NCBI RefSeq assembly: GCF_031458235.1
Contig: NZ_JAVDYB010000001.1
Span: 2,935,001 to 2,999,000 of the forward strand
Length of the DNA stretch: 64,000 nt
Direction of reading: 5' to 3'
From: Catenuloplanes atrovinosus
Lineage (GTDB): Bacteria > Actinomycetota > Actinomycetes > Mycobacteriales > Micromonosporaceae
Positions 1,365 through 47,751 of the stretch are shown here, in pieces. A model generated the notes under the pieces. It saw only the letters and a list, made by a program, of their open reading frames with translations, was not told the DNA's origin and searched no databases. The position numbers and the translations under genes were made by a program. Every line of letters begins with the position of its first letter. Position 1 is the stretch's first letter.

Positions 1365-3488
1365 TCAGCCCACCGGGAGTGGGGCCTGCCGCGCGCGTTC
1401 GAGATCCGTGTGTTCGGAGACCAGGGGGCCCACGTCCAGGATCAGGGCGACGTCCCCGTTCCCCAGGATGGTGGAGCCGCTGACGCACTTCAGATTGGAG
1501 AACAACGGGCCCAAGGGCTTGATCACGGTCTGGAACTCGCCGAGGAGGGAATCGACGACGAGGCCGGTGCGCTGGCCGGACTGCTCGACCACGACGACGT
1601 TCTGGCGGCGGGCGGGGTCGCCGGGGATGCCGAAGATCTGGCGGAGGCGGATGAACGGGAGCACCTCGCCGCGGAGGTTCATGCAGTCGCGGCCGCGTGG
1701 GCCCGGCGGCAGCTCCACGCACTCGGTGACCCGGTCGAGCGGGACGATGAACGAGGACGGGCCGACGCCGACCAGGAAGCCGTCGATGATGGCCAGCGTC
1801 AGCGGGAGCCGGATTCTGATCGTGGCGCCGTGGCCGCGGACGGACTCGACCTCGATGCTGCCGCGCAGCGCGGCCACGTTGCGGCGTACGACGTCCATGC
1901 CGACACCCCGGCCGGAGAGGTTGGAGATCTGGTCGGCGGTGGAGAAGCCGGGCTCGAAGATCAGGTCGTAGACCTCGGCGTCGGTCAGGGTGGCGGTGGC
2001 GGAGACCAGGCCGCGGTCCACGGCCTTGGCGAAGATCTTGTCCCGGTCCAGGCCGCGGCCGTCGTCCGCCACCTCGATGACGATGTTGCCGGCGTCGTGG
2101 TACGCGTGCAGGCGCAGCGAGCCCTGCGCGGGCTTGCCGGCCCGCACCCGCTCGGCGGGCGGCTCGATGCCGTGGTCGAGCGAGTTGCGGACCAGATGCA
2201 GCAGCGGGTCGCTGATCCGCTCGACCAGCGCCTTGTCCATCTCGGCGTCGCCGCCGGTGATGGTCAGCTGGACCTCCTTGCCCAGGTCGACGCAGACGTC
2301 GCGGACCACGCGCTCGAAGCGGCGCAGCGTCATGCCGATCGGCACCATGCGCAGCGACAGCGCGCTGTGCCGGACCTCGTCGATCAGGCGGGTGACCTCG
2401 CCCTGGGCCTCCGCGCCGGCGGCCAGCATGGTGGTGCTGGCCTGCGCGATGACCAGCTCGCCGACCAGGTCGATGAGCCGGTCCAGCCGGGCGGCGTCGA
2501 TCCGGATGGTCTGGGTGTCGCCGGAGCGGGTGTCCGCGACCTTGCGCTGCCGGGTGAGCGCGGCCTCGACCACGGCCGGGTCCGCGATACCCTCTTCGAT
2601 CAACACCTGACCGATGGGTACGGACAGCGAGCGCTCGCGCTGAATCCGCAGCGCCGTGTCGATCTCCGTGGGCGTGACCGCGCCGCTCTCCAGCAGCACG
2701 TCGCCGAGCCGGTCCCGCTGCGGCATCGACTCGATGAAGTCCACGTAGGACGCGGCGGCCAGCGGTGTGATCCGGATGTCGCTCTCGTCGCGGACGAACT
2801 CGAAGACCGACTCGATCTCGGCCTTGGCCGCGTCCGTGACCAGGTCGGCCTCGAACGCGAGGTAGCTGGTCTCCGGGTCCAGATCCGCGGCCTCGGGCAG
2901 CGCGGAGTCGTCCACGGTGACGCGGGCCAGCGTGCCGAGCGTGCCCAGGTAGCGCAGGAACGACATCGGGTCCATGCCGTTGCGCAGGCAGTCCGGGCCG
3001 AACCGCAGGCTCAGCCGCCAGCCGCGGTCGGCGCGCGCGCTGGCGACGGGCGCGGCCGGTGCCGTGGCCGCGGGCGTGAACGTGCCGGGCAGGAACGGCG
3101 TGAGCCGGGCGAGCAGCGCGGCGCCGGCCGCCTCCTCGGCCGGGGTGGCCTCCAGCCGGCCGCCGGCCACGCCCTCGACCACCTGCGCGATGTGGTCCGC
3201 GCACGGCAGCAGCGCGCTGATCAGCTCCGGCGTGACGCGCACGTCGCCCTCGCGGACGTGACCGAGCAGCGTCTCCACCACATGCGTGAAGCTGACCAGG
3301 TGGGACAGGCCGAACAGGCCGGCCGAGCCCTTGAGCGTGTGCGCGGACCGGAACACCGCGTTCACGGTCTCCGCGGCGTCCGGGTCGGCCTCCAGCCCGA
3401 GCAGGCCCTCCTCCAGCGCCTCCAGCAGTTCCCGCGCCTCGGTGATGAAGATGTCCAGCGCCTCGGTGGCGTCGTCCTCGAAACTCAC
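1365..3488 (-). CDS. cheA: Chemotaxis histidine kinase CheA
   Basis: 707 residues from a GTG start overlapping the STAS gene stop (GTGA). The HPt domain carries the phospho-accepting histidine at about residue 50 (SAHTLKGSAG). The dimerisation helices contain LVGELVIAQAS (about 330-390). The ATPase domain shows the N box (HLVRNSLDHGIEP), G1 (VADDGRGLD) and G2 (GRGVGMDVV), and a CheW-like domain closes the protein. It should phosphorylate CheY and possibly CheB in response to receptor arrays. Odd feature: residues about 258-318 hold two copies of an 'LG-x-LL-x-x-G' helical motif (LGDVLLESGAV and IGQVLIEEGIA) resembling the N-terminal domain of GspE/PilB ATPases. It is last in the che operon. 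Confidence 0.95.
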   Translation of the reverse strand: MSFEDDATEALDIFITEARELLEALEEGLLGLEADPDAAETVNAVFRSAHTLKGSAGLFGLSHLVSFTHVVETLLGHVREGDVRVTPELISALLPCADHIAQVVEGVAGGRLEATPAEEAAGAALLARLTPFLPGTFTPAATAPAAPVASARADRGWRLSLRFGPDCLRNGMDPMSFLRYLGTLGTLARVTVDDSALPEAADLDPETSYLAFEADLVTDAAKAEIESVFEFVRDESDIRITPLAAASYVDFIESMPQRDRLGDVLLESGAVTPTEIDTALRIQRERSLSVPIGQVLIEEGIADPAVVEAALTRQRKVADTRSGDTQTIRIDAARLDRLIDLVGELVIAQASTTMLAAGAEAQGEVTRLIDEVRHSALSLRMVPIGMTLRRFERVVRDVCVDLGKEVQLTITGGDAEMDKALVERISDPLLHLVRNSLDHGIEPPAERVRAGKPAQGSLRLHAYHDAGNIVIEVADDGRGLDRDKIFAKAVDRGLVSATATLTDAEVYDLIFEPGFSTADQISNLSGRGVGMDVVRRNVAALRGSIEVESVRGHGATIRIRLPLTLAIIDGFLVGVGPSSFIVPLDRVTECVELPPGPRGRDCMNLRGEVLPFIRLRQIFGIPGDPARRQNVVVVEQSGQRTGLVVDSLLGEFQTVIKPLGPLFSNLKCVSGSTILGNGDVALILDVGPLVSEHTDLERARQAPLPVG

Positions 3489-3757
3489 GGCAGCGCCTCC
3501 AGCGATCCGTCCAGGTGCACGATGGCCAGCGCCTCCCGCACGGCCGGGCTGGCGTCCCGGAACTCCACGGTCGCGCCGATCCGCGCGGCCTCGCGCCGGG
3601 CCAGCAGCAGGATCTGGAGTCCGGCCGTGTCGAGCTCGGTGACGCCCGCCAGCCGTACCCGCAGAACGCTCTTCTCCTCCAGGGCGGCGATCAGCCGCGG
3701 CGCCTGCTCCGCCGCCGCGTGGATCGTCAGCTCCCCCTCCAGCTCGACCGAACTCAT
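3485..3757 (-). CDS. STAS-domain protein
   Basis: 90 residues from ATG 3757. It has the STAS/anti-sigma-antagonist fold signature, with ELDTAGLQILLLARR at the position where SpoIIAA-type proteins have DSSGL. The usual phosphorylatable Ser is replaced by Thr-Ala, so regulation by phosphorylation is uncertain. It overlaps the preceding repeat ORF by ATGA and the following cheA by GTGA, so all three are probably translationally coupled. STAS proteins inside che operons are known in several phyla but their role is unsettled; a link between the kinase array and another regulator is inference. Confidence 0.85.
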   Translation of the reverse strand: MSSVELEGELTIHAAAEQAPRLIAALEEKSVLRVRLAGVTELDTAGLQILLLARREAARIGATVEFRDASPAVREALAIVHLDGSLEALP

Positions 3758-4206
3758 GCCGGACTCACCTCGAGGCCGCGGTTGCGGTGTGGTCGGCGCT
3801 GAGCCGATGATTCGCTCGTAGGCTCGCGTGTGCCGGGCTCTGCCGGGAGGCTGCGGTTGCGGCGTGGTCGGCGCTGAGCCGATGATTCGCTCGCAAGCTC
3901 GCGTGTGCCGGGCTCTGCCGGGAGGCTGCGGTTGCGGCGTGGTCGGCGCTGAGCCGATGATTCGCTCGCAAGCTCGCGTGTGCCGGGCTCTGCCGGGAGG
4001 CTGCGGTTGCGGCGTGGTCGGCGCTGAGCCGATGATTCGCTCGCACGCTCGCGTGTGCCGGGCTCTGCTGGCAGGCTGCGGTTGCGGTGTGGTCGGCGCT
4101 GAGCCGATGATTCGCTCGCACGCTCGCGTGTGCCGGGCTCTGCTGGCAGGCTGCGGTTGCGGTGTGGTCGGCGCTGAGCCGATGATTCGCTCGCAAGCTC
4201 GCTCAT
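3754..4206 (-). CDS. Translationally coupled low-complexity ORF made of 25-residue repeats
   Basis: An open frame of 150 codons starts at an ATG that overlaps the cheY stop (ATGA, 4206-4203) and ends in a TGA that overlaps the STAS start (ATGA, 3757-3754). It begins MSELASESSAQRRPHRNRS and is made almost wholly of about six copies of a 25-residue unit (ASESSAQRRP, RNRSLPAEPG, TRE). The composition is Arg/Ser/Pro/Ala/Glu-rich with no hydrophobic core, so if made it should be disordered and basic. The 75-bp period keeps the frame. It may be a true peptide or may only pass ribosomes from cheY to STAS-cheA. The same N-terminal motif begins the epimerase at 17916. Confidence 0.55.
   Translation of the reverse strand: MSELASESSAQRRPHRNRSLPAEPGTRERASESSAQRRPHRNRSLPAEPGTRERASESSAQRRPRRNRSLPAEPGTRELASESSAQRRPRRNRSLPAEPGTRELASESSAQRRPRRNRSLPAEPGTREPTSESSAQRRPHRNRGLEVSPA
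3781..4205 (-). repeat. 75-bp direct tandem repeat, about 5.7 copies
   Basis: Units begin at 3781, 3856, 3931, 4006, 4081 and 4156, with exact 75-bp spacing and no spacer sequence. Copies differ by a few substitutions (for example gcggtgtgg versus gcggcgtgg, and ctgccgggagg versus ctgctggcagg). Each unit holds a hairpin-capable core, TCGGC-GCTGA-GCCGA. The period is 25 codons, so copy-number change would keep the reading frame and the downstream coupling. Confidence 0.95.
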
Positions 4207-4571
4207 GGCGCGATCAACTTGCTCACGGCCGCGAGCATCTGCTCGGGCTGGAACGGCTTGGTCACCCACGCCTTCGCGCCGGCCGCCTGGGCCTGGCGCT
4301 TCTTGTCCTCCTGCGACTCCGTGGTCAGCATGATGATCGGCGTGAACTTGTACGCGGGCAGCTTCTTCGCCTCGGTCACGAACGTGATGCCGTCCATGTT
4401 AGGCATGTTCACGTCGGAGATGATCAGGTGGATGCGGCGGCCGTCCAGCTTCTGCAGCGCGTCCTTGCCGTCCGTGCCGACCAGCACGTCATAGCCCGCG
4501 CCCTTGAGCGCGATGCTGACCACCTGCCGTACCGACGCCGAGTCGTCGACCACGAGCACCGTCTTCCCCAT
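4203..4571 (-). CDS. cheY: CheY-type response regulator
   Basis: 122 residues, a stand-alone receiver domain. All key residues are present: acid pocket Asp9-Asp10 (VVDDSAS), phosphoacceptor Asp53 (SDVNMPNMDG), Thr83/84 (MLTT) and Lys105 (VTKPF). Phosphorylated by CheA, it should act as the diffusible output to the motor, although no flagellar genes lie in this window. It starts 10 bp after the mcp-like gene with a GGGGGAA ribosome binding site. Its stop codon is overlapped by the ATG of the repeat ORF. Confidence 0.95.
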   Translation of the reverse strand: MGKTVLVVDDSASVRQVVSIALKGAGYDVLVGTDGKDALQKLDGRRIHLIISDVNMPNMDGITFVTEAKKLPAYKFTPIIMLTTESQEDKKRQAQAAGAKAWVTKPFQPEQMLAAVSKLIAP

Positions 4572-4580
4572 GATTCCCCC

Positions 4581-5624
4581 TTAGAAGAACGTGATCTCCG
4601 AGTCGGCGACCCGGGCGCCGGACTTCGAGCGGTGCGCCTGGACCTCCTCGGCCATCGTGTAGGTGGCCTCCATCTCGCCGAGGATCGCCTCCGGGTCGAT
4701 CGGCGGCGCGTCCGTCCGGGAGCGCTCACCCGCCTCCTCCACCACGGCGGGCAGCCGGTCGATGCTGGCCTGGAGGTGTTCCAGCACCTGGCAGACCCGG
4801 TCCTGGAACTGCAGGTTGACCAGGGACTCACTGATGTCGCCGCGGATGCCGACCGCGGCGCGCTCCAGCGACGCGGAGGAGTCCCGGAAGCCGGCGACCA
4901 CGCCCTGCAGGTCGTCGAGCACGGCCTGGACCTCCGCGTTCGCGCCCGCCACCGCCTCGTCCTCACGCTCCGCGGTCTGCTCCGCGTGGTTGAGCAGCGT
5001 CCTGATCGTCGACTCGACCCGGCCCACCTTCTCCGCCATCCGCTCGCTGGTGCCGGCGGACCGGTCGGCGAGCTGCCGCACCTCGTCCGCGACCACGCCG
5101 AACGCGGCACCGGCCCGGCCGATCCGGGCGGCCTCGATGGACGCGTTCAGCGCGAGCAGGTTGGTCTGCGCCGCGATCGCGGTGACCTCGCCGGACATCT
5201 GGCGCAGCTCGTCGTTGAAGGCGAGCAGTGTGCGCAGCTCCGCGACCGTCTCCCGCTTGGACGACAGCGCCTCGTCGAGCGTGCCGACCACACCGCCGAG
5301 CCGCTCCCGGCTGCGGTCGAACGTGCCGCCCTGCCCGTCGTCGAGCGCGCCGGTGGAGGACTCCAGCACGGTGTCCAGGTTCTCCACGATCTCCGCGAAC
5401 CGCTCGGTGAGCGTGCCGACCGCGGTCTCCATCTGGCTGCGCGAGGAGGTGAGCTGCGCGGACCAGACCGGCGCCAGCGTGCCGGCGAGCCGGCTCACGC
5501 TGCGCAGATGGGGATCGTCGCGGGTGGCGGCCGGCGGTGGGGCGGTGGAGCGCCGCCGGCCCAGGCCGTACCCGGCACCCCCGCCCACGGCGAGGCCCAG
5601 CAGAACCCACAGCATCTCAGCCAT
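4581..5624 (-). CDS. MCP-like protein without sensor domain
   Basis: 347 residues. One N-terminal transmembrane helix (about 4-22) is followed directly by a long coiled coil. There is no periplasmic sensor and no HAMP. The receptor hairpin tip is recognisable as [20 protein letters not shown] and [15 protein letters not shown], the CheA/CheW contact region. After it comes a second helical segment (about 230-300) containing [15 protein letters not shown]. It ends in SEITFF. It probably acts as a cytosol-facing adaptor or receptor within the same array. It overlaps the end of cheB by 8 bp. Confidence 0.85.
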
Positions 5625-16879: not shown

Positions 16880-17916
16880 CGCCGCCACCCGTGCTCCCGG
16901 TACCACGCGAACGTGGTCCTGACCCCCTCCTCCAGCGGCACGGTCGGCTCGTACCCGGTGAGCGAGCGCAGCAGCGTCAGGTCGGGGCAGCGGCGCCGGA
17001 CCGAGCCGGGCGGCGCATCCGAGGGAGCCAGCGCGGCGGAGACGCCGGCCACCCGGAGCACCAGCTTGGCGAGGTCACCGATGTTGGTCTCCTCGCGGTC
17101 GTTGCCGATGTGCACGATGTGGCCGGCGGCGGCCGGCGCGGCCATCAGCGCCAGGATCGCCGACACCGCGTCGTCCACGTGGCAGAACGCGCGGAACTGG
17201 TCCGCGCCCGGCACCGCGAACGGGTCCGCGCCGTTCAGCGCGCGCAGCGACATCTCCGGGATCACGTGGTCCGCGCCCATCCGCGGACCGTACACGTTGT
17301 GGAACCGGCCGACGACCGCGTCGAATCCACGCGCCCGCGACGTGTGGATGAACGCGGCCTCGCCGAGCAGCTTGCTCACCGCGTACGCGAAGCGCGGCGC
17401 GGTCACGTCGGAGATCTGCGCCGGGATGTTCTCCGGCGTCGGCACCGGCACGATCCCGGCGTCCACGCCACCGGCGTAGACCTCGCTGGTCGACGCGAAG
17501 AACACGCGCGAGCCCGGCGCCACCCAGTCGAGCAGGTGCATGGCGGAGAGCGTGTTGACCCGTACCACCCGCGCCGGGTCCTTCTCCACGTTGCGCACGC
17601 CGACCACGGCCGCGAGCAGGTAGATCTGGTCCCAGCCGGTCGCCGGGAGCGCGGCCCAGACGGCCGGGTCGGTCAGGTCGCCGGAGATCAGGTCGATGGA
17701 CGGCCGAAGCTCGTCCAGGAAGGCGTCCTGCCGGCCGCGGGAGAAGTCGTCCACGATGGTGACCTCGTGCCCGTCGGCCACGAGCCGGCGGGCCAGGTGC
17801 AGGCCGATGAAGCCGGCACCGCCGAGCAGCAGCGCCCTCGTGCCGGATCGCCCGTCCTGCCGCGGGTCCCGGCCCGGTCGGCGCTGAGCCGATGATTCGC
17901 CCGCGAGCACGCTCAT
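16876..17916 (-). CDS. NAD-dependent epimerase/dehydratase with recurrent ESSAQRR leader
   Basis: 346 residues from ATG 17916, overlapping the dehydrogenase stop (ATGA). The extended-SDR Rossmann motif GGAGFIGLHLARRL starts only at about residue 32; catalytic residues are in FFASTSEVY and YAVSKLLGE. VYGPRMGADHVIPEMSL is close to UDP-glucuronate decarboxylases and 4-epimerases. It probably converts the uronic-acid nucleotide sugar made by the upstream dehydrogenase. The first 25 residues (MSVLAGESSAQRRPGRDPRQ) are not part of the fold and match the repeat ORF at 3754-4206. Confidence 0.88.
   Translation of the reverse strand: MSVLAGESSAQRRPGRDPRQDGRSGTRALLLGGAGFIGLHLARRLVADGHEVTIVDDFSRGRQDAFLDELRPSIDLISGDLTDPAVWAALPATGWDQIYLLAAVVGVRNVEKDPARVVRVNTLSAMHLLDWVAPGSRVFFASTSEVYAGGVDAGIVPVPTPENIPAQISDVTAPRFAYAVSKLLGEAAFIHTSRARGFDAVVGRFHNVYGPRMGADHVIPEMSLRALNGADPFAVPGADQFRAFCHVDDAVSAILALMAAPAAAGHIVHIGNDREETNIGDLAKLVLRVAGVSAALAPSDAPPGSVRRRCPDLTLLRSLTGYEPTVPLEEGVRTTFAWYREHGWRR
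17876..17916 (-). repeat. Dispersed copy of the MS-x-LA-x-ESSAQRR element
   Basis: These 41 bases read ATGAGC, then a variable stretch, then GAATCATCGGCTCAGCGCC and GACC. They match 38 of 41 positions at the start of the tandem array (4206-4166). Both copies begin exactly at the ATGA junction with the upstream gene's stop codon, in the same orientation and frame. Confidence 0.9.
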
Positions 17917-19229
17917 GCCGCCACCGCCGCGGTCTCGACGGCCGGCAGGTAGCCCAGGCCCGCGTACCGGATGCCCGCGGCGCGCACCGCGGCCTCGTCC
18001 AGCACCCGCCACGAGTCGTAGATGAACGCCGGCTTCGCACCGCCGAGGATGTCCGGGATCCGGATCGCCCGGTAGTCCGGGTGGTCGTTGATGATCAGCA
18101 CGGCGTCCGCGTCGGTGAACGCCTTGTCCAGCGACACCGGCTCGCCGCCGTACTGCCGGATGACGTCGTCGCTGACCAGCGGGTCGTGCCCGATCACGGT
18201 GATGCCCGCGGCCGAGAACACGCGCATCATGGTGGCGATCGGCGTGCCGCGCATGTCGTCCGTGGCCGGCCAGCCCTTGTACGCCCAGCCCAGCACCGCC
18301 AGCCGCGCGCCGAGGCTGCGCCCGCGCGCCTCCTTGAGCATCTTCACGATCGTCTCGCCGACGTGGATCGGCAGGTACTCGTTCAGCTCGCGCGCCTTGC
18401 CGACCAGGAACGGCGGCCGGTCACCGGCGGAGTCGATCAGGATGTACGGGTCCTTGGACAGGCAGCCGCCGCCCACGTACCCCGGCTTGGCGATGTCCGG
18501 CCGCGGATAGTCCACATTGGTGGCCCGGATGACCTCCAGCGGGTCCAGCCCGTGCCGCTCTGCGATCAGCGCGATCTCGTTGCCGAACGAGTAGATCAGG
18601 TCGGTGTGGCAGTTGTTGGTCAGCTTGACCAGCTCCGCCGTCTCCAGCCCGGACACGGTCTGGATGGTCTGCGCCAGGCCGGAGAAGAACTCGACCCCGG
18701 CGGCCAGCGAGGCCTCGTCCAGGCCGCCGATCACCTGCGGCAGCTCGACCAGTTCGCGCAGCGCCTGGCCCTGGATGGTGCGCTCCGGCGCCATCACCAG
18801 CTTGACGTCGTCGCCCCACGCGGCCTGCAGTTCCGGCAGCACCACGTTCCGCGAGGTGCCGACCGGCACGGTGCTGCGCACCACGACCAGCGTGCCCGGG
18901 CGGCAGGCGGCGGCGACCGCGCGGGCGGCCGCGGCCAGGTTGGCCAGGTTCGGGCGGCGGGTGATGTCGTCCACCGGCGTGGACACGCTGATCACCGCGA
19001 CCTCGACGTCAGCGGGCAGCTCGGTGGAGACGAAGATGTCCTTGCCGATCCGGTTCGCGAAGATGTCGTCGATGCCCGGCTCGAAGATGTGCGGCCGGCC
19101 GCGGGACAGCGAGTCCAGGATCGCCGGCGACACGTCCGCGCCGTACACGGTGAAGCCCTTCTCGGCGAGGGCGGCGGTGAGCGTCAGGCCCACGTAGCCG
19201 AGGCCCACGACCCCGATCTTGCTTGGCAT
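17913..19229 (-). CDS. Nucleotide-sugar (UDP-HexNAc-type) 6-dehydrogenase
   Basis: 438 residues from ATG 19229, with a GAGGAG RBS. It is full length for the family. The NAD site is KIGVVGLGYVGLTLTAALAE, the catalytic nucleophile is Cys256 (YVGGGCLSKDPYIL), the substrate Lys lies in ELVKLTNNCH, and the C-terminal NDP-binding domain is present (LGWAYKGWPATDDMRGTP). The signature APERTIQGQALREL and VIGGLDE resembles UDP-ManNAc/UDP-GlcNAc dehydrogenases more than UDP-glucose dehydrogenases, so the product is probably a HexNAc-uronic acid (inference). Within the polysaccharide operon it supplies an acidic sugar precursor. Confidence 0.9.
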   Translation of the reverse strand: MPSKIGVVGLGYVGLTLTAALAEKGFTVYGADVSPAILDSLSRGRPHIFEPGIDDIFANRIGKDIFVSTELPADVEVAVISVSTPVDDITRRPNLANLAAAARAVAAACRPGTLVVVRSTVPVGTSRNVVLPELQAAWGDDVKLVMAPERTIQGQALRELVELPQVIGGLDEASLAAGVEFFSGLAQTIQTVSGLETAELVKLTNNCHTDLIYSFGNEIALIAERHGLDPLEVIRATNVDYPRPDIAKPGYVGGGCLSKDPYILIDSAGDRPPFLVGKARELNEYLPIHVGETIVKMLKEARGRSLGARLAVLGWAYKGWPATDDMRGTPIATMMRVFSAAGITVIGHDPLVSDDVIRQYGGEPVSLDKAFTDADAVLIINDHPDYRAIRIPDILGGAKPAFIYDSWRVLDEAAVRAAGIRYAGLGYLPAVETAAVAA

Positions 19230-46593: not shown

Positions 46594-47751
46594 ATGAATC
46601 AGTACCGAGGAATGTCACTGTGGACGGCCGTCGTCGTCGCGGTTCTGGCGTTGAGTGGCACGCCGGGACCGGCCGTCGCGGCGTCCGCGGCCGCGGCGCC
46701 GCCGGCGATCTCCGCCGTCACCGCCGGGTACGCGCACACCTGCGCGCTCGGCAGCGACGGCTCGCTGTGGTGCTGGGGAGGCAACGGCTTCGGCCAGCTC
46801 GGCGACGGCACCACCACGGACCGCACCGCCCCGGCCCGGGTCGGCGACGCCACCTGGATCAGCGTGGACGCGGGCACCAGCTACACCTGCGGCGTCCGCA
46901 CCGACCGCTCACTGTGGTGCTGGGGACACAACTTCCGTGGCCAGCTCGGCGACGGCGGGACCACGACCCAGACCTCCCCGGTACGGGTCGGCACCGCCGC
47001 CACCTGGGCCACCGTCACCGCGGCGGACAGCCACACCTGCGCCACCCGCACCGACGGCACGCTGTGGTGCTGGGGCTTCAACCGGCACAACCAGCTCGGC
47101 CAGGACTCCTCGGTCTACGTCGCGACCGCGCCGCTGCAGGTCGGCACCGCCACCACCTGGGCGCGCGCCACGACCGGGTTCGCGCACACCTGCGGCGTCC
47201 GCACCGACCGTACGCTGTGGTGCTGGGGTGACAGCTCCAGCGGGCAGCTCGGCGTCGGCAGCCTCGGCTACCGCACGAACCCGGCGCAGGTCGGCACCGC
47301 GGCCACCTGGACGACCGTGACCGCGGGCTACACGTTCACCTGCGCGTCCCGCACCGACGGCTCGCTGTGGTGCTGGGGCGAGAACGGCTACGGCCAGCTC
47401 GGCTCCGCGGTGCCCTACCAGACCGCACCGATCCAGGTCACCGGCACCACCTGGTCCGGCGTGACGGTCGGCTTCGACACCACCTGCGCCCGCCGCACCG
47501 ACGGTTCGCTGTGGTGCTGGGGCAACAACGGCCAGGGCCAGGTCGGCGACGGCACCACCGCGCACCGCTCCACGCCGACCCGGGTCGGCACGGGCACCAC
47601 CTGGACCGACGCGCTCGCGGTCGGCTACCACACCTGCGCCGTGCGTACCGACGGCACGCTGTGGTGCTGGGGCGCCAACTGGAGCGGCCAACTCGGCGAC
47701 GGGACCACCACACGCCGCTCGGCCCCGGCACAGGTCGTCTTCCCCGCCTGA
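46594..47751 (+). CDS. Secreted RCC1-repeat beta-propeller protein
   Basis: 385 residues. Signal peptide to about residue 30 ([20 protein letters not shown]). The mature part is seven RCC1 repeats of about 48-50 residues, each with HTC, a [R/S]xDG[S/T]LWCWG strand and GQLGDGTTT. The seven LWCWG motifs suggest a closed seven-blade propeller, with two Cys per blade positioned for disulfides. Such extracellular proteins are common in actinomycetes and myxobacteria; ligands are unknown. A CebR-like box upstream suggests induction by cello-oligosaccharides (inference). Confidence 0.9.

Follow-up and report, generated by a model that had tools for sequence, protein, structure and literature searches.

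The locus investigated here raises the question why an epimerase gene of Catenuloplanes atrovinosus starts with almost the same 41 bp as a repeat ORF at another gene junction of the same stretch of DNA (64 000 nt in total, G+C 0.71–0.75, hereafter called the window). We confirmed that the minus-strand sequences 17916–17876 and 4206–4166 are identical at 38 of 41 positions and that both copies begin at an ATGA holding the TGA of the upstream gene. The initial annotation had treated these 41 bp as a complete element with unrelated sequences downstream, and on both points it has to be corrected: the element is actually 74–80 bp long. In this genome the full unit comprises 74–75 bp, from ATGA to ATGA, and the 41-bp match covers only its 5′ half. 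The remainder of the epimerase copy aligns to other units with a best score of 16, compared to a mean of 4.6 and a maximum of 15 for shuffled sequences (n = 500), and a profile built from 47 units (profile R1, alignment A1) matches the copy at 17842–17916 over model positions 4–78 of 78 (E = 3.9e-14). The repeat ORF at 4206 was found to consist of six tandem units. Table 1 lists the features of both loci.

Table 1. Element copies at the two junctions and the genes next to them (window positions)
Feature	Position	Strand	Remarks
75-bp element copy	17842..17916	-	ATG at 17916 is the epimerase start codon; 3′ ATGA decayed to ACGA (17841-17838)
UDP-glucose/GDP-mannose dehydrogenase family gene	17913..19229	-	Pfam; TGA 17915-17913 overlaps the element's ATG; gene start putative
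NAD-dependent epimerase family gene, 346 aa	16876..17916	-	First 25 codons are element; Pfam Epimerase match from residue 29
Six-unit array	3758..4206	-	5 x 75 bp without internal ATGA and a last unit of 74 bp; one 150-codon mini-ORF closing at the start of the STAS gene
Response regulator receiver-domain gene	4203..4571	-	Pfam; TGA 4205-4203 overlaps the array's first ATG
STAS-domain gene	3485..3757	-	Pfam; closing TGA of the array overlaps the ATG at 3757

The consensus of the 47 aligned units is ATGAGCGAGCTTGCGAGCGAATCATCGGCTCAGCGCCGACCACGCCGnnACCGCGGCGTGGAGGGnnGTCCGGC, followed by ATGA, and its mini-ORF begins MSELASESSAQRRP. For the core GAATCATCGGCTCAGCGCC we found seven exact matches in the window, compared to 0.02 expected by chance with up to three mismatches allowed. 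Genome-wide, 135 matches with at most two mismatches were observed, compared to none for the reversed-pattern control, and profile R1 recovered at least 155 copies, a lower bound with 150 candidates scored. For further analysis we used 72 distinct arrays drawn from the matches listed by the core and profile searches, a subset of those in the genome. Initially 75 arrays were obtained, three of which were dropped as duplicates (one in L192, two in L193), and one of the 16 loci of the second set (L188) yielded no array under the core filter. The 72 arrays comprise 154 units, with 34 arrays consisting of a single unit and 38 of several. In the variable half of the unit the identity is 0.84 within arrays compared to 0.57 between arrays. 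A search of seven loci against Rfam gave no match at the gathering score (one sub-threshold hit, E = 0.79, was obtained for window positions 3400–4700); plasmid records contained no match for three unit types, phage records none for window positions 3757–4571, and no tRNA was found in the 64-kb window. A tandem repeat with a period of 150 bp (and 294 bp) is located at positions 46715–47737 of the window; its consensus would read WGDNGHGQLGDG, which we take to be RCC1-like.

The units are located at many unrelated gene pairs (15 pairs were read and 72 arrays scored), and their position relative to the flanking genes is not random. Judging the upstream coding frame by its codon-position G+C pattern, we found that the first TGA closes this frame in 49 of 71 arrays, compared to 44 of 849 other NTGA sites within the same loci (Fisher, P = 4e-38); the other 22 arrays have no upstream coding frame ending at the first NTGA. 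On the downstream side, a mini-ORF leads from the first NTGA, unit by unit, to the start of a coding-like frame in 55 of the 72 arrays, and 10 arrays are fused in frame to the downstream gene, so that relay or fusion into a coding-like frame is found in 65 of 72. Before the final start, 46 of 56 arrays show an SD-like motif (16.3 in shuffles). Seven arrays do not relay: three run in the wrong frame, three are broken and one has no NTGA. Two of them belong to a single locus (L187), where the stretch examined contains no coding-like frame; another (L059) is followed by an additional decayed copy, and behind two more (L067 and L074) there are short ORFs, 72 and 53 codons long. The last two, L183 and L191, are true exceptions with a normal-looking gene behind and no relay; the former is a single unit of 73 bp, as counted by hand in the sequence, and the latter has a decayed 5′ end. 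GGC stands directly before the first NTGA in 33 of the 63 arrays in which this NTGA is exactly positioned, compared to 2 of 34 ordinary stop-start junctions, and therefore the target or the duplication may extend beyond NTGA. The 5′ flanks of some arrays (L009, L078 and L087) resemble the 3′ end of a unit.

The spacing between neighboring units follows a frame rule. At a spacing of 74 bp, an ATGA is present at 39 of 39 junctions between units, compared to a spacing of 75 bp (16 arrays) with no NTGA at 33 of 38 junctions (P = 8e-17); at the five 75-bp junctions that keep an NTGA (in L066, L075 and L079) the frame continues across the junction. A spacing of 73 bp occurs three times, all in L187, where about 230 bp examined behind the array contain no coding-like frame. 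This locus, the sole one with such a spacing, carries seven R1 matches (L187:1609–2122) and looks like an array freed of the frame constraint. We simulated single-base changes in the single-unit arrays: of 1518 positions, 1120 give an in-frame fusion after a +1 insertion; after a -1 deletion, 1150 give a wrong frame or a break and 368 are still relayed. From these simulations it follows that the 75-bp class is the one shift that usually keeps translation going after loss of the inner ATGA. A cruder simulation over all intact arrays is a weak control, as 4729 of 9972 single-base deletions were still relayed. The epimerase copy has undergone a change of this type: one base was gained (75 bp) and the 3′ ATGA was lost (ATGA to ACGA), and therefore 25 element codons now form the N-terminus of the epimerase, which is predicted to begin MSVLAGESSAQRRP. 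Hence the start codon and N-terminal tag described in the initial annotation can indeed both be supplied by the element, but its usual form is a separate mini-ORF, and the tag is a derived, fused form (10/72). At a different locus (L027) the protein downstream of the array begins MTQLATEYVGSAPATPEPRPHGTPG, which resembles a decayed unit joined in a different frame, and the array scoring counts a fifth, fused unit there; to judge from the sequence, this reads like a second candidate for an N-terminus made by the element.

We compared orthologous junctions in four congeners and observed both empty and filled sites at all three junctions investigated (Table 1 and a junction whose genes we take to be nuoI and nuoJ). 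Between dehydrogenase and epimerase the site is empty in all four congeners and the epimerase starts directly at GTGA or ATGA, so that only this one of the five genus genomes carries the element there; two further family members aligned at this junction have no element and other spacers. At the presumed nuoI-nuoJ junction two congeners are empty at ATGATC, one carries a single 74-bp unit and one a single 77-bp unit, compared to two units in this genome. Between response regulator and STAS gene, one congener is empty with exactly one ATGA (gcgcc-ATGA-gcacc), one contains a 77-bp unit between two ATGA and two contain one degenerate unit, compared to six units in this genome. From the comparison of filled and empty sites we conclude that the unit inserts, leaving an NTGA on both sides. 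The empty sites and the junction bias of the 72 arrays bear out the initial proposal of a dispersed element that enters gene junctions in sense orientation. They also answer the two checks it had suggested, a genome-wide search (at least 155 copies, with a strong bias to junctions in the 72 arrays) and a comparison with orthologous junctions (sites lacking the element at three of three). The refuting outcome it had named, a lack of further copies or of any junction bias, did not arise, and 'mobile coupling tag' is a largely apt label.

Could the copies be kept for what they encode? If the mini-ORF peptide or an attenuation were the function, the element would be a selected regulatory or peptide-coding module, and the strongly conserved 5′ half of the unit is consistent with that, the fraction of non-consensus bases being 0.039, 0.062 and 0.082 at the three codon positions (slightly highest at the third). 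However, the 3′ half varies at every codon position (0.284, 0.191 and 0.267), the fused forms make no separate peptide, and occupancy differs among congeners at three unrelated junctions. In these codon-position fractions we observed no clear selection on the mini-peptide past staying open, and we regard a selected module as improbable. Still less probable is a palindromic element of the REP/BIME type, inserted for its hairpin and moved by a RAYT transposase, for which the relation to coding frames would be incidental. Like REP elements, the copies are short and dispersed and have a small inverted repeat in the core: the 5-bp arms TCGGC/GCCGA are paired in 93.6% of cells (47 units), compared to 5.5–56.6% when the arms are slid. 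However, we found no covariation of the inverted repeat above shuffles (189 of 500 were as high for cells paired and 122 of 500 for the covariation score), and RNAalifold predicted nine other pairs, none with a compensatory change. Moreover, the sense copies at stop-start sites, the internal ORF and the frame rule are features that a REP element does not need. The inverted repeat noted in the initial annotation thus stands, but the reading as a REP-like hairpin was rejected for lack of covariation. It is very improbable that the copies reflect ordinary homology of the genes beside them or were only duplicated locally in tandem without moving: homogeneous tandem units do seem to arise by duplication, but the occurrence at many unrelated gene pairs and the clean empty sites in congeners argue against it.

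Taken together, our findings point to a mobile minisatellite element of the MIRU type, to which we assign a probability of about 0.88. In the literature, MIRUs are described as 40–100 bp long with 41 locations in H37Rv (PMC2734929), as 77 and 53 bp long (PMC4213456) and as mostly intergenic, presumably in polycistronic units (PMC3635867). At one repeat-bearing junction a few base pairs only are found in mycobacteria outside the tuberculosis complex (PMC2734929). According to a 2025 review (PMC12548453, crediting Supply et al. 1997), MIRUs seem to be mobile elements that enter at start codons, where the target gene is coupled to an internal ORF of the element by a -4 spacing; therefore the mechanism itself is not new. 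The element described here shares these properties: it is short, dispersed and often tandem in operons like the mobile, start-codon-inserting MIRUs (PMC12548453), and the published lengths of 77 and 53 bp (PMC4213456) are also 2 mod 3. Its 74/75-bp units occur singly (34 arrays) or in tandem (38), the internal ORF overlaps the flanking stop and start codons by NTGA (-4; 55 of 72 arrays relay, 10 are fused and 7 fail), and filled and empty sites at three of three junctions indicate mobility. It differs in its host outside Mycobacterium, its unit length of 74/75 bp, its higher copy number (at least 155) and its fusions (10/72), and the likeness drawn here is one to the published descriptions of MIRUs. 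Features of MITEs are present as well (short and mobile, a unit too short for a transposase gene and a short repeated target, NTGA, at both ends), but by eye the units show no terminal inverted repeats, and in the arrays that relay or are fused (65 of 72) the units are oriented with translation.

For the MIRU-type element we propose the following course of events. A single unit, with 74 bp here and a predominant length of 77 or 80 bp in the other genera read, would insert at an NTGA stop-start overlap or at a start codon, probably by transposition through some enzyme, leaving an NTGA at both ends. A ribosome terminating the upstream gene would restart at the ATG of the unit and read 25 codons up to the TGA of the far NTGA, where it would terminate and begin anew at the downstream gene's own ATG, presumably helped by the SD-like stretch at the 3′ end of the unit; this reinitiation is deduced from the sequence. 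Because the unit length is 2 mod 3, the ribosome could restart in the unit and hand on to the downstream ATG, and because translation is relayed in this way, insertion would be nearly neutral. Arrays may then arise by tandem duplication, and a later +1 change (75 bp), if the inner or 3′ ATGA is lost as well, would turn the relay into an in-frame fusion. At 17842–17916 such a fusion would have given the epimerase its new N-terminus.

The element is not restricted to this genome. All five genomes of the genus carry it, with 155 matches here and 23, 33, 34 and 35 in the others. Within the family, profile R1 gave matches in at least 58 of 200 genomes and at least 12 of 44 genera, and the core with at most one mismatch was found in 14 of 200 genomes. 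Across the class, a 20-base gapped pattern was found in 20 of 394 genomes (13 of 138 genera and, by our own count, seven families; the reversed control gave 0 in every genome listed), and profile R2 matched at least 23 of 394. In profile searches covering over 40 genomes the number of candidates scored for each genome was small (23 in the family and 11 in the class), and their counts are therefore lower bounds. Outside the genus we read 64 units: 59 have a short ORF, 58 of these 59 end in NTGA, and in 57 a coding-like frame or another unit follows. In 46 of the 64 the first TGA is the stop of an upstream coding frame. Most units are 77 bp (31) or 80 bp (22) long; lengths of 2 mod 3 follow from the construction of the ORF test, so that what is informative here is that the ORF ends in NTGA and that a coding frame follows, and the loci derived from profile R2 lean towards both ATGA ends, which this profile includes. 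An exact 20-mer search of a species-level collection, which may omit near relatives, returned three records from other groups with part-profile matches only, which we attribute to chance.

In a further genus (g51, perhaps Mycobacterium), profile R3 matched 14 of 40 genomes at E ≤ 0.01, several of them with 65-bp units from ATGA to ATGA, in tandem at two loci (L294 and L306); four of the 14 (G599, G605, G617 and G632) have a single weak and doubtful hit each. By eye, we observed in four genomes of this genus that a common junction holds differing versions of the element (L291, L300, L307/L312/L317 and L313): a 65-bp unit, short fused copies, or copies of about 30 bp that are stacked and joined to the gene. 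The product of the gene behind this junction reads EINGGNVVYEILG..., presumably an alpha/beta-hydrolase. This pattern suggests a hot spot at which N-termini have been converted repeatedly.

We found no report of such elements outside mycobacteria in the open-licence literature, searched mostly by title. Three points thus apparently go beyond what we found in print: the occurrence in many genera, the frame rule of 74/75 bp and the step from coupling unit to protein N-terminus within one genus. On balance we lean towards one ancient family inserting at stop-start sites throughout many families of the class, with MIRUs as its mycobacterial branch, whose forms (65, 74, 77 and 80 bp) are all 2 mod 3 in length and which may give rise to new N-termini by a single +1 step. 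If this is true, the repeated seeding of N-termini would be a standing source of new protein starts. The rule by which the element survives is visible in its length: a built-in relay of translation would allow insertion even between the genes of an operon. The 72 filled sites and the empty sites at three junctions make both termination-reinitiation and the birth of N-terminal extensions directly testable. Gene callers should treat as element sequence any mini-ORF with the start given above for the unit, and likewise an extension of this kind at the front of a real enzyme.
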